Assembly: GCF_019343455.1 (NCBI RefSeq)
Contig: NZ_CP049362.1
Span: 372,001 to 436,000 of the forward strand
Direction: 5' to 3'
DNA length: 64,000 bases
Source: Alcaligenes ammonioxydans
GTDB lineage: Bacteria; Pseudomonadota; Gammaproteobacteria; Burkholderiales; Burkholderiaceae_B
Positions 21,969 through 55,540 of the stretch are shown here, piece after piece (position 1 is the first letter of the stretch; the number at the start of each line of letters is the position of its first letter). The position numbers were made by a program, and so were the translations under genes. Under the pieces are notes generated by a model, which made no database searches, was not told where the DNA came from, and saw nothing but the letters and a program-made list of their open reading frames with translations.

Positions 21969-21983
21969 TTTGTCTTATACGTT

Positions 21984-22040
21984 TTGCGCCGATTTGCCTG
22001 ATCCGCTTGCGGGCGCTCCATAAATCCAGCTAAAGAGGTC
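21984..22040 (+). promoter_or_regulatory. SAM-II (SAM-alpha) riboswitch of metX
   Basis: All conserved elements are present in order: P1 GCGCC (21986-21990) with GGCGC (22012-22016), GATTT (21991-21995), CTTGC (22006-22010), ATAAA (22020-22024) and AGCTAAAGAGG (22028-22038). The pseudoknot pairs CCT (21997-21999) with AGG (22036-22038). That AGAGG is also the Shine-Dalgarno sequence, 5 bases before the metX ATG, so SAM binding should block translation directly. Confidence 0.85.
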
Positions 22041-22043
22041 CAG

Positions 22044-23288
22044 ATGGCCACTGATTCCGTCCCCTGCGCCAACGTTGGCGCCCCTAGCCCATCCTGCGGA
22101 TTGATCCCCGAAGGTTCTGTGGGCCCTGTACAAGCCGAACTCATTGCGTTTGATGAACCGCTGCACCTGCGCAGCGGGCAAGTGCTGCCCAGCTACGAGC
22201 TGGCCGTCGAGACGTACGGCACCCTGAATAAAGAGCGCAGCAACGCGGTCCTGGTGTGTCATGCGCTCAATGCCTCGCATCACGTTGCCGGCTATTACGA
22301 TGACGATCCCAAAAGCGTAGGCTGGTGGGACAATATGGTCGGTCCCGGCAAGGCCGTGGATACGGATCGGTTTTTTGTCATTGGCGTCAACAATATTGGC
22401 TCCTGTTTTGGTTCTACGGGGCCGTCCAGCATCAATCCCGCTACCGGCAAGCCCTGGGGCTCCGAGTTTCCCGTTCTGACCGTGGAGGACTGGGTACGTG
22501 CCCAGGCGCGTCTGGCCGACTATTTTGGCATTCGCAAGTTCGCGGCCGTCATGGGAGGATCGCTGGGGGGCATGCAAGCCTTGAGCTGGGCGATCAGTTG
22601 CCCCGATCGCGTCGAGAACTGCGTGGTTATTGCCAGCACACCGCGCCTGTCAGCGCAGAATATTGCGTTTAACGAAGTGGCCCGCAGTGCCATTTTGTCT
22701 GACCCGCAGTTTCATGGCGGCAATTATTACGAGCATGGCGTGGTACCCAAGGCCGGACTGGGCGTGGCCCGCATGGTGGGCCATATCACCTACCTGTCTG
22801 ATACCGTCATGGCCGAGAAGTTTGGCCGCACCCAGCGTGCGCCGGCGCAAGGTGGCGAATACCACTACAACTATGGCGTGGAATTCGAGGTCGAATCCTA
22901 TCTGCGTTATCAGGGAGAGAAGTTCTCACGCTACTTTGACGCCAATACCTACCTGATCATTACGCGGGCCCTGGATTACTTTGATCCGTCCCGTCCGTAT
23001 CAGGGGGATCTGAGCAAAGCCCTGGAAAACGTGATGGCCAAGTTCCTGCTTGTTTCCTTCACCACGGACTGGCGTTTTTCGCCCGAGCGCTCGCGTGAAA
23101 TTGTGCAGGCCCTGCTCCGTAACCAGCGTCAGGTGACCTACGCTGAAATCGATGCTCCGCATGGACATGATGCTTTCTTGCTGGAAGACCCCCGCTACCA
23201 TGCGGTCGTACAGGGATACTATGATCAGATCGCCGTTAATTTGGGCTTGCCTGCGCGCACGCGCACGACGGGGGTGCTGGCAAAATGA
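22044..23288 (+). CDS. metX: homoserine O-acyltransferase MetX
   Basis: Activates homoserine for methionine synthesis. 414 residues, alpha/beta hydrolase fold. The nucleophile elbow is [13 protein letters not shown] (catalytic Ser near 170), with the Asp of [12 protein letters not shown] and the His of [12 protein letters not shown] completing the triad. [21 protein letters not shown] and [14 protein letters not shown] are family signatures. Betaproteobacterial members often use succinyl-CoA rather than acetyl-CoA, which cannot be decided by eye here. It is controlled by the SAM-II riboswitch immediately upstream and overlaps metW by 4 bases (ATGA). Confidence 0.95.
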
Positions 23289-52922: not shown

Positions 52923-53773
52923 GGGGTGGTATCGCCAGGCAAAGGGGGCGCATCGTGAGGAATTTTGTAGCGGTTATAGCCCCACAGGTATTGGGTGGGG
53001 AAGCGCCGGATCATGGTTTCCATGGACTGGTTGATCAGGGTAGCCAGTTCTGTCGGGTCCTCGGGCAAGGGCTCGGGCAGACGCAAGGTATGGATATGCC
53101 ATCCACGACCTTTGGGCAGGCGCTCGGCAGCAGTCACAATCACAGGCACGTTGGATTGGCGTGCCAGCTTGCCCGCCAGCGTCATTGTCAGGGCAGGGCG
53201 ACCAAAGAATGGCGCCCATACACCATCTCCGCCGCTGGGAACCTGATCGGGCAACATGCCGACCGACTCGCCCCGGCGAAAAGCACGAACCAGCTCGCGC
53301 ACGCCTTTGATATTGGCCGGAACGGCATGCAAACCGGGTAGCTCGCGCGACTCGACCATCAAGGGTTCCAGAAACGCCTGACGGGGTGGGCGGAACATCA
53401 CGGTCATCGGGTCCACGCCGGAAAAATAGCGTGCAATCATTTCAAAACAGCCCAGGTGCGGAGTCAGATACAGTATGCCGCGACCCTCGGCCAGCGTTTC
53501 CTGGACCAGGGGCAGATTGTCGATTGTGCAGCGCTCCAGACAGGCTTGTGGATGCAGCCAGACGCGGGGGGTTTCCACAATCATGGCCCCTGTCTGCCCG
53601 GCCGCTTGTCGAAAAAAAGCGGGAGAGTCGTAGCCCGCTTGGCGACAGTGACTTTGCAAACGGCGGCGATAGCGTCCCGGAAAGGCGTAAATCAGGCGCC
53701 CAACCCCGTTGCCCAGAAAATGCAGGGCGGGTAAAGGCAGACGAGCCAACAAGCGCAAAAGAGCCACTAGCAT
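52919..53773 (-). CDS. lysophospholipid acyltransferase, LpxL/HtrB family (first copy)
   Basis: 284 residues. Catalytic HX4E in TPHLGCFEMIARYF (about 106), MFRPPRQAFLEPLM, GMLPDQVPSGGDGVWAPFFG and QYLWGYNRYKIP. It differs from its neighbour in having Glu instead of Asp in the active-site motif. First gene of the operon that continues through dapF to xerC; divergent from metK. Confidence 0.9.
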   Translation of the reverse strand: MLVALLRLLARLPLPALHFLGNGVGRLIYAFPGRYRRRLQSHCRQAGYDSPAFFRQAAGQTGAMIVETPRVWLHPQACLERCTIDNLPLVQETLAEGRGILYLTPHLGCFEMIARYFSGVDPMTVMFRPPRQAFLEPLMVESRELPGLHAVPANIKGVRELVRAFRRGESVGMLPDQVPSGGDGVWAPFFGRPALTMTLAGKLARQSNVPVIVTAAERLPKGRGWHIHTLRLPEPLPEDPTELATLINQSMETMIRRFPTQYLWGYNRYKIPHDAPPLPGDTTP

Positions 53774-53839
53774 GGGCCAGACAATCCTTTAAAGTGAAGT
53801 TTTGCTGAAATAAATACGTATTTTCGCTTAAAATGGAAT

Positions 53840-53914
53840 GTATCGCTGAGTTAAACGACAACTTGCGGAGCGATCAGGCAGCAATCTGCCCACTATAAAC
53901 CGCTAAAGCGTCGC
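53840..53914 (+). promoter_or_regulatory. SAM-II-like riboswitch candidate in the metK leader, with an extra hairpin
   Basis: P1 ATCGCT / AGCGAT (53842-53847 with 53869-53874), GAGTT in the GATTT position (53848-53852), CTTGC (53862-53866), ATAAA (53895-53899) and GCTAAAG (53902-53908). The pseudoknot CGAC (53856-53859) pairs with GTCG (53910-53913). Compared with the metX aptamer, a hairpin GGCAG-CAAT-CTGCC (53877-53890) is inserted between P1 and ATAAA. It begins at the predicted transcription start and ends about 95 bases before the metK GTG. Confidence 0.6.
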
Positions 53915-54010
53915 GCCCCGTCTATCGTATCCACATCGCTGGCTTCGAGGTGCAACGCAGTTTGTTCAACCTCGTGCTGATTATCAGCCCTTATCCAAGG
54001 AAGCTACGCT

Positions 54011-55174
54011 GTGAACCACAACGACTTTCTCTTTACGTCCGAATCCGTCTCTGAAGGGCACCCCGACAAGGTTGCCGACCAGATTTCCGACGCCATCCTG
54101 GACGCGATTTTCGAGCAGGACCCGCAAGCGCGTGTTGCCGCTGAAACCCTGTGCAATACCGGCCTGGTGGTGCTGGCCGGCGAGATCACGACCCACGCCA
54201 ACGTGGACTACATCCAGGTAGCCCGTGACACCATCAAGCGCATTGGCTATGACAATGGCGACTACGGCATCGATTACAAATCCTGCGCGGTTCTGGTGGC
54301 CTATGACAAGCAATCGCCCGATATCGCCCAGGGCGTGGACCGTAGCCCTGAAGAGCTGCTGAACCAGGGTGCCGGCGACCAGGGCCTGATGTTTGGCTAT
54401 GCCTGCGACGAAACCCCTGATCTGATGCCTGCTCCGATCTGGTATGCCCACCGTCTGGTGCAACGCCAAAGCGAGCTGCGCAAAGATGGTCGTCTGCCCT
54501 GGTTGCGCCCGGATGCCAAGTCCCAGGTTACCTTCCGCTATGTGGATGGCCATCCTGCCGAAGTGGACACCGTGGTGCTGTCCACCCAGCACGCGCCTGA
54601 AATGTCCCAGAAGGACATTCACGAAGCGGTCATTGAGCACATCATTCGTCCATGCTTCCCATCGGATCTGTTGACCGAGAAAACCCGCTTCCTGGTGAAC
54701 CCCACCGGCAAGTTCGTGATTGGTGGTCCTCAAGGCGATTGCGGTCTGACTGGCCGCAAGATCATTGTGGACACCTACGGCGGTGCCTGCCCGCACGGTG
54801 GCGGTGCCTTCTCCGGCAAGGACCCCTCCAAGGTGGACCGTTCCGCGGCCTACGCGGCGCGTTACGTGGCCAAGAATATTGTGGCCGCCGGTCTGGCGCG
54901 TCAGTGCCAGGTGCAGTTGAGCTACGCCATTGGCGTGGCCGAGCCAATCAACATCACCATTTACACCGAAGGCACGGGTGTGATTCCGGATACCGAAATC
55001 GCCAAGCTGGTGCGCCAGCATTTTGACCTGCGCCCACGCGGCATTATTGACATGCTGGATCTGCAGCGTCCCATCTACTCCAAGACAGCCGCCTATGGTC
55101 ACTTCGGCCGCAGCGAGCCTGAGTTCAGCTGGGAGGCCACGGACAAGGCGCAGATTTTGCGTCAGGCCATCTAA
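54011..55174 (+). CDS. metK: S-adenosylmethionine synthetase
   Basis: Makes SAM from methionine and ATP. 387 residues, normal length. [20 protein letters not shown] opens the ATP site, with [45 protein letters not shown] (P-loop-like) and [19 protein letters not shown] following. GTG start with AAGGAAG 8 bases upstream. The 237-base divergent region to the acyltransferase genes holds a SAM-II-like leader. Confidence 0.96.
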
Positions 55175-55540
55175 GCCTTTTGGGCGAACAGGCAAAGGCC
55201 GCATGAGCGGCGCTTTGCAGACGTAGTATCGCGTTGTGGGTTCCCGATCCGGGTGCCCGCAACGTGGGCTGAGGCGGGCCAGACTCGGACTCAGACAAAG
55301 AAATGATGTTTTTTACCAGTGAGGCTGTCTTCCCAAGAGGAGCCAAACAGGTACAATCACCAACAGTAAATTGCCATCCTCGAGGGGCGTTGCGACAAGA
55401 CACTGATCTTGCCAGGCTCGGGGTATGGATAGGTGGTATCCACCTTGGAGAACGACGCTCACCACGACCCGCATGGCGGGCTGCTGGTGAGATTCATTTG
55501 CTCTCCGTGCAGTCCGCGTGCCGTATAACGGAGCCCGACT
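55175..55540. other. metK-ahcY intergenic region
   Basis: 366 bases: a hairpin GCAAAG-GCCGC-ATGA-GCGGC-CTTTGC (55192-55218, no T run) after metK, a TACAAT -10-like box at 55352-55357, and the SAH riboswitch with its expression platform. No gene is supported. Confidence 0.65.
55376..55491 (+). promoter_or_regulatory. SAH riboswitch of ahcY with expression platform
   Basis: Aptamer: TCGAG (55380-55384) pairs with CTCGG (55417-55421); GGGCGT (55385-55390) pairs with ACGCTC (55455-55460); conserved TGCGAC and GCCAGG lie between; small hairpins AAGA/TCTT and GGATA/TATCC. Platform: CTCACCA (55458-55464) can instead pair with TGGTGAG (55485-55491) around CCCGC-ATG-GCGGG. It shares CTC with the aptamer, so SAH binding should break this hairpin and raise ahcY expression. 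Confidence 0.88.

Follow-up and report, generated by a model that had tools for sequence, protein, structure and literature searches.

A SAM-II-class aptamer with a variable inserted hairpin in betaproteobacterial metK leaders and its proposed role as a translational OFF switch

The leader of metK, the SAM synthetase gene, in the window (the whole 64,000-nt stretch of Alcaligenes ammonioxydans DNA analysed here) most probably carries a SAM-II-class aptamer with a variable third stem, P3, that acts as a translational OFF switch governed by SAM; we put this reading at about 0.8. Comparison of leaders shows a predicted H-type pseudoknot of the SAM-II class, with P1, a short P2a and a lengthened P2b as its helices, which is conserved before metK. 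We infer that SAM would be the ligand, that the response would be in the OFF direction, and that events on the leader would follow the order proposed below. By alignment the element appears to be a widespread variant of the SAM-II class, not found described.

Layout of the metK leader

The promoter-like site, the aptamer and the gene are laid out as follows.

53805..53834, + strand: promoter-like site, second hexamer TAAAAT at 53829-53834 (consensus match only, 9/12; shuffles mean 0.3)
53842..53847, + strand: P1 helix, 5' strand ATCGCT (sequence inspection and covariation in alignment A5)
53848..53854, + strand: L1, GAGTTAA, predicted third strand of a triplex (position roles from PMC3764141 and PMC6061858)
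53856..53859, + strand: pseudoknot P2a, 5' strand CGAC (A5 covariation)
53862..53868, + strand: P2b, 5' strand CTTGCGG, with CTTGC at 53862-53866 followed by GG at 53867-53868 (sequence inspection and A5)
53869..53874, + strand: P1 helix, 3' strand AGCGAT (sequence inspection and A5 covariation)
53877..53890, + strand: inserted hairpin P3, GGCAG CAAT CTGCC (shuffle z=-2.4)
53895..53899, + strand: A-rich L3 stretch ATAAA (P1 minor-groove role expected by homology)
53900..53908, + strand: P2b, 3' strand CCGCTAAAG (sequence inspection and A5; homology to 2QWY numbering)
53902..53908, + strand: GCTAAAG block (sequence inspection)
53910..53913, + strand: pseudoknot P2a, 3' strand GTCG (sequence inspection and A5 covariation)
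54011..55174, + strand: metK, SAM synthetase, GTG start, 387 aa (Pfam S-AdoMet_synt N, M and C)

The original prediction, made from the letters of the window, had likened this leader to a SAM-II aptamer upstream of metX. P1, GAGTT (53848-53852), CTTGCGG, ATAAA and GCTAAAG lie where it had placed them, as do the 4-bp pseudoknot of CGAC with GTCG and the 5-bp hairpin of GGCAG (53877-53881) with CTGCC (53886-53890), closed by a CAAT loop, between P1 and ATAAA. P2 is extended in the window by two pairs beyond those it had listed, GG at 53867-53868 with CC at 53900-53901. The TAAAAT hexamer ends 7 nt ahead of P1, and a TATTTTCGCTTAAAAT-like block near the promoter-like site is common to the nearest relatives.

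Covariation of P1 and P2

Alignment A5 holds 76 of 105 non-redundant leaders, chosen by the author for spread and with mostly near relatives omitted. A regex run over 260 loci gave 184 matches labelled MetK, from which the 105 derive; 20 loci had no match. Leaders had to show CTTGC, GCTAAA then GCG, an L1 rich in U and a P1 of 4 pairs or more. This choice conditions the features named, along with the inner pairs of P1 and a single base of P2a; it leaves unconditioned the outer pairs of P1, the P2b extension and the remainder of P2a.

In A5 the 17-pair structure of P1 and P2 has standard pairs in 95.8% of pair cells, and slid control structures pair at 38-48%. Changes on both sides occur in 9/17 pairs and 128 cells (shuffle mean 40.4 cells), and 0/500 shuffles reach the observed value on any of five measures. 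The leaders share ancestry, so that p-values here and below overstate independence. Most of the change falls in P1, with 5/6 pairs changing on both sides and 96.2% of cells paired. Within P2a, pair 20-116 is GC in 62 leaders, AU in 7, GU in 4 and other in 3, while the fourth pair, 19-117, does not form in 31 of 75 leaders. Within P2b, pair 30-105, the first of the GG/CC pairs, is GC in 47 of the 76 leaders, AU in 22, GU in 5 and other in 2; it is similar to a Watson-Crick pair in the SAM-II prediction of Barrick and Breaker (PMC2258182). No variation is seen in six of the P2 pairs. Across these leaders the putative P1 stem and P2 pseudoknot covary as is characteristic of the SAM-II class. Core and covariation together support the central claim of the original prediction, that metK in a betaproteobacterium carries an aptamer of SAM-II type into which a hairpin is inserted.

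The covariation that had been proposed as a check is present in P1, P2a and P2b across the 76 leaders of many families but weak in the nearest family alone. There, 2 pairs have both-side changes, 71/500 shuffles score as high, and 9/11 pseudoknot pairs never vary; this says little because the core hardly varies in that family. Within-family covariation was too weak (71/500) to be used as support.

The inserted hairpin

Against its dinucleotide shuffles, the insert in the window has a more stable fold (z=-2.4). A long L3 (at least 17 nt) is present in 79/105 leaders and a compact L3 of 4-13 nt in 26/105. Over the 79 long forms the mean z is -2.30, with z below -1 in 65 and empirical p<=0.05 in 51, and the inserted sequences differ freely among leaders. 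The shuffle test found no hairpin beyond chance in some long-L3 leaders, e.g. L054, L062, L187 and L220. Adenine occupies L3 positions -5, -6 and -7 in 87, 84 and 70 of 104 leaders, respectively. In SAM-V a 3-bp P3 lies at the same place and is followed by stacked adenines (PMC6061858, section 12). The range from compact to inserted forms and the SAM-V precedent therefore point to a tolerated peripheral stem rather than a new core. As for the suggestion that a three-helix form may be undescribed, no description was found, but the hairpin itself, given compact relatives and the P3 of SAM-V, does not appear to define novelty; the metK type is set apart, as far as the alignments go, mostly by G10, a short P2a and a translational platform.

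The predicted binding pocket

The residues of the SAM-II pocket are U11, U12, U20, U21, G22, C23, G42, C43, U44, A45, A46 and A47 (PMC3764141). In our own residue alignment to SAM-II all of these are kept, and among the residues invariant in that pocket U10 is the sole exception. U53851 and U53852 correspond to U11 and U12, G53850 stands at U10, and CCGCTAAAG includes U and A residues matching SAM-contacting ones of SAM-II. The combination UUGC...GCUAAA is found in 72/72 metK model matches (MetK within 350 nt), CUUGC in 70/72 and GCUAAAG in 71/72, a conservation that is partly by construction, the covariance model having been trained on such leaders. U10 is described as completely conserved in SAM-II (PMC3764141), whereas the window and 60/72 metK matches have G10 and 12/72 have U10. 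In SAM-V, U8 is in contact with U47, the partner of the SAM adenine (PMC6061858); in our alignment U8 corresponds to U10 of SAM-II, and G10 would accordingly count as the one change of the predicted pocket.

Distribution before metK

A DNA search of 101 genomes gave matches in 85, many in the coding part alone, and 30 loci were obtained. The core is kept in 30/30 of these, which were picked by DNA similarity to the window region and are not an independent sample. Alignment A2 comprises 24 of the 30, six near-identical loci being omitted, and is the basis of covariance model R1. R1 matched 233/399 genomes of the order at E<=0.1. It was searched again on 80 of these matching places (87 matches) and on 29 of 30 loci from the order-wide search plus the window (36 matches), and a MetK-like frame starts within 350 nt in 72 of the 122 R1 matches examined, the window's own excluded.

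Of 150 genomes sampled from the order, 106 have a match to a broader covariance model, R2, at E<=0.01, and 148 have metK. An R2 match lies 0-400 nt upstream of metK on the same strand in at least 44 of the 147 genomes with a listed metK; matches were listed for 100 of the 106 matching genomes, and counts before metK are lower bounds. Among the matches listed, the median gap from R2 match to MetK match is 72.5 nt, and 20 of the 44 matches are at least 70 nt long. No match stands before metK in the other 103 of the 147 genomes, among the matches listed and under strict filters that miss some. Among the named genomes of the pattern scan described below, the element precedes metK in Alcaligenaceae, Oxalobacter, Cupriavidus, Duodenibacillus, Rhodocyclaceae, Roseateles and Gallionellaceae.

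In a draw at class level 83/274 genomes match at E<=0.01, and in one at phylum level 21/249 match at E<=0.001; where these loci were examined, only those of the same order stood before MetK. A pattern scan of named genomes gave at least 120 stretches, of which 80 were listed. Titles among the matches listed include Alcaligenaceae, Oxalobacteraceae, Cupriavidus, Roseateles, Rhodocyclaceae, Sutterellaceae-type genera, Gallionellaceae and Neisseriales-type genera, the families being those in which we take the genera to belong. The Neisseriales-type matches were not on metK where examined. A Bacteroidetes MAG (L192, 7060-7270) has a compact metK-type aptamer with a second SAM-II-like element about 100 nt downstream; this match is likely real because P1, GATTTAA, GACAACTTGC and GCTAAAGCGTC are present.

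Relation to described riboswitches

The expectation that strict models would miss this leader was borne out. A relaxed Rfam scan of 53600-54200 at E<=10 gave no SAM-family match and one weak sRNA match outside the leader. No Rfam family matched the metK leaders of 34/34 loci at E<=1; the loci come from this genome and its relatives, one Rfam scan contributing 14 of its 20 loci and another 20/20. SAH matches in those loci fall elsewhere, outside the leaders. Matches to RF00521 (SAM_alpha, the SAM-II model) were confined to L122 and, in the tandem arrangements of L063, L064, L066 and L090, to the aptamer lying upstream; one of these five matches is above cutoff. An Rfam scan of the whole window found tRNA, an SAH riboswitch and a SAM_alpha match, none of them on metK. 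A score above the RF00521 cutoff, tried as a mark of the class, was obtained neither for the window leader (E<=10) nor for the 34 metK loci (E<=1). The identity of the element rests on core and covariation because no curated model matches it. By these the proposed class placement is well supported, with Rfam scores below the RF00521 cutoff and U10 mostly replaced.

The metK element shares with SAM-II the H-type pseudoknot, P1, the L1 residues U11/U12, CUUGC, an A-rich L3 and GCUAAAG, as well as a promoter-like site just ahead of P1. Its gene context is also that of SAM-II, metK being a methionine/SAM gene. It differs in having no Rfam match, mostly G10, an optional P3, a place on betaproteobacterial metK and a translational-type platform. 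SAM/SAH, SAM-III and SAM-VI are likewise SAM sensors, some of them on metK; they have folds and lineages other than those of the metK element, and at E<=10 the window leader matched none of them. SAM-V, which we take to be RF01826, likewise has no Rfam match here, and the anti-Shine-Dalgarno strand of the metK leader lies downstream of the aptamer, unlike in SAM-V. The likenesses to SAM-V are that its core superposes with that of SAM-II, that P3 stands between P1 and the A-rich strand, and that control is translational (PMC6061858). An insert in the position of P3 is present in the window and in the 79 long-L3 leaders of the 105, and absent from the 26 compact ones. P2a is 3-4 bp in the metK type versus 5 bp in 60% of SAM-II, and in SAM-V it is 2 bp and includes the Shine-Dalgarno sequence (PMC6061858), whereas P2a of the window is CGAC/GTCG with the ribosome binding site about 85 nt downstream.

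The SAM-II long loops family (RF01726) is likened by name only, as SAM-II with longer loops, and is listed for Bacteroidetes and marine sequences (PMC2864571); Rfam scans of the window and metK loci gave no match to it, if that model was among those scanned. The metXZ RNA element that Leyn et al. 2014 presented as new is likewise a betaproteobacterial pseudoknot on methionine genes, but it stands on metX/metZ with terminators (PMC4239095). It is perhaps the same as the SAM-II element before metX in the window.

Open-licence PMC articles yielded no description of the metK element; a subscription paper or a supplement alignment may hold one. The 2014 survey by Leyn et al. lists metK as lacking a known methionine regulator in beta-proteobacteria, its own search having failed (PMC4239095). 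Corbino et al. reported SAM-II in alpha-proteobacteria with few cases elsewhere, and Bordetella bronchiseptica is named in a figure legend (PMC1273637), so SAM-II in this lineage is not new as such.

Expression platform and proposed switch

The following elements lie between the aptamer and the metK start.

53908..53917, + strand: GCGTCGCGCC, candidate strand for P2 (SAM bound) or for 53949-53958 (SAM free) (duplex energy)
53940..53946, + strand: anti-Shine-Dalgarno strand TGGCTTC (duplex energy and MFE)
53947..53973, + strand: hairpin GAGGT...ACCTC, between the anti-Shine-Dalgarno strand and the ribosome binding site (MFE)
53949..53958, + strand: GGTGCAACGC, competing strand for the pseudoknot strand (duplex energy; GGYN(N)ACGY motif)
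53997..54006, + strand: ribosome binding region AAGGAAGCTA, predicted as paired in the OFF state (duplex energy and MFE)

In the MFE structure of the window 53940-53945 pairs with AAGCTA at 54001-54006, AAGG at 53997-54000 pairs with CCTT at 53989-53992, and the start codon is paired. The window duplex of the anti-Shine-Dalgarno strand with 54000-54006 (GAAGCTA) has an energy of -10.1 (swapped mean -8.3, rank 0.21). A start codon was found in 175 leaders; over the 103 of these that are non-redundant downstream of the aptamer, the duplex with the leader's own ribosome binding site averages -11.65 kcal/mol versus -8.93 when swapped (Wilcoxon p 1e-12); the own partner falls in the best quartile in 72/103 and outside it in 31/103. 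A sequence like the GAGGT...ACCTC hairpin is present in many of the nearest leaders.

The duplex of GCGTCGCGCC with GGTGCAACGC in the window reaches -15.2 kcal/mol versus -10.1 with a shuffled partner. For the competing strand in the 103 leaders the corresponding values are -12.60 (own), -11.12 (swapped) and -9.78 (shuffled), with the own partner in the best quartile in 57 and outside it in 46. The motif GGYN(N)ACGY occurs in 33/103, 4.1 being expected from shuffles. That both strands fit their own partners suggests a translational OFF switch as the likely mode of control.

When SAM is scarce, the 3' strand of the pseudoknot (GCGUCGCGCC) would pair with the downstream strand (GGUGCAACGC), which would open the hairpin masking the ribosome binding site and let metK be translated. 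With SAM bound, the GCGUCGCGCC strand would be locked into P2, the downstream hairpin and the anti-Shine-Dalgarno helix could close, and translation would stop.

A clear switch was expected from equilibrium folding with a masked strand, and a small shift was obtained. Mean Shine-Dalgarno accessibility over the 103 leaders is 0.235 free, 0.209 with the pseudoknot strand masked and 0.281 with random masks; masking that strand lowers it in 43 leaders, raises it in 22 and leaves it about equal in 38 (p 0.01). The Shine-Dalgarno sequence is mostly hidden in both computed states. Because the computed effect is small, the OFF direction is weakly supported, and co-transcriptional kinetics may decide.

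Other aptamers in the window and in relatives

The aptamer that the original prediction had placed before metX is recovered as a SAM_alpha match at 21976-22054 (37.9 bits, cutoff 36). It is barely above cutoff and precedes an alpha/beta-hydrolase gene, metX according to that prediction. An SAH riboswitch at 55376-55467 precedes ahcY directly after metK, placing two different aptamers at neighbouring steps.

Tandem SAM-II riboswitches are known, some with control at the ribosome binding site (PMC9481103). In L049, L097, L237, L260 and others (families f4, f21 and f27, and Neisseriales-type records) an ordinary SAM-II aptamer is followed by one of the metK type. Such tandems precede an ORF of about 100 aa starting MYDC/MFDC, with no Pfam match in L049 and L097, and also a transporter gene (Pfam MatE in L237 and L260). 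In L231 an ordinary SAM-II and a metK-type aptamer stand in tandem upstream of metK itself.

Aptamers of the metK type also lie upstream of genes for AAA_5 (MoxR-like) ATPases in L075 and L259, and by sequence only in L209 and L266. In L100 and L101 one lies upstream of an HD_4 domain protein (Pfam on L100); a MetK-like frame of 50% identity is found 1.2 kb downstream, outside the 72 metK matches. In L269, L287, L289-L293 and L295 (family f210, of the same class) an ORF of about 105 aa follows a similar aptamer whose L3 is long, and a 90-aa piece of one such ORF had no Pfam match. L186, L209 and L259 may contain an element of yet a third type, GATTTG..ATTGC..GCTAAACAGGAG, in which the putative pseudoknot strand includes an SD-like stretch.

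Alternative readings

The same fold could serve a changed ligand or specificity, G10 altering recognition so that, for instance, SAM and SAH are bound equally or another SAM-derived compound is bound. The prevalence of G10 where SAM-II has an invariant U, and the contact of the equivalent SAM-V U8 (PMC6061858) with the adenine-pairing U47, would fit this, as would the similar aptamers before MatE, AAA_5 and HD_4 genes and the existence of a ligand-changed SAM aptamer variant, for spermidine (PMC10853860). It is nonetheless judged unlikely, since the leader retains the counterparts of U11 and U21, which serve the sulfonium, of U44, which serves the adenine, and of A47, which serves the amino acid end, the gene downstream is that of SAM synthetase, and the 12 metK matches with U10 have the same gene context. 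Control by transcription termination or Rho in place of translation has the same small chance. Most SAM-II riboswitches are said to be transcriptional (PMC6061858, PMC2258182), but a simple scan of the window leader (53760-54060) finds no intrinsic terminator-like site, and the anti-Shine-Dalgarno strand fits its own ribosome binding site across the 103 leaders.

Less probable still is a reading in which the conserved block serves as a DNA site, or as a leader bound by protein, instead of as an RNA that binds a ligand. The block does adjoin the promoter-like site and is nearly invariant within the nearest family; a DNA site, however, does not fit the compensatory changes across families in P1, P2a and P2b, and conservation falls on the residues that form the pocket in SAM-II. 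A SAM-responsive aptamer of the SAM-II class acting on translation is thus the preferred reading.

Implications for SAM synthesis in betaproteobacteria

Beyond that reading, the metK type may conceivably form a separate branch of a SAM-II/SAM-V superfamily, with its own pocket chemistry and translational control, whose relatives were recruited to other genes; this wider view is tentative and on balance doubtful. If true, the branch would supply the feedback control so far missing from betaproteobacterial SAM synthesis, and its close relatives, alone or in tandem with SAM-II, would have been recruited to MATE transporters, MoxR-type ATPases and unknown genes. The recruited genes would then belong to SAM-related physiology, or a second ligand would be implied.

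For the cell, the proposed switch would probably allow the making of SAM synthetase to stop when SAM is plentiful. The metK element is a concrete candidate for the metK regulator missing in betaproteobacteria, a gap stated in the survey of Leyn et al. (PMC4239095).
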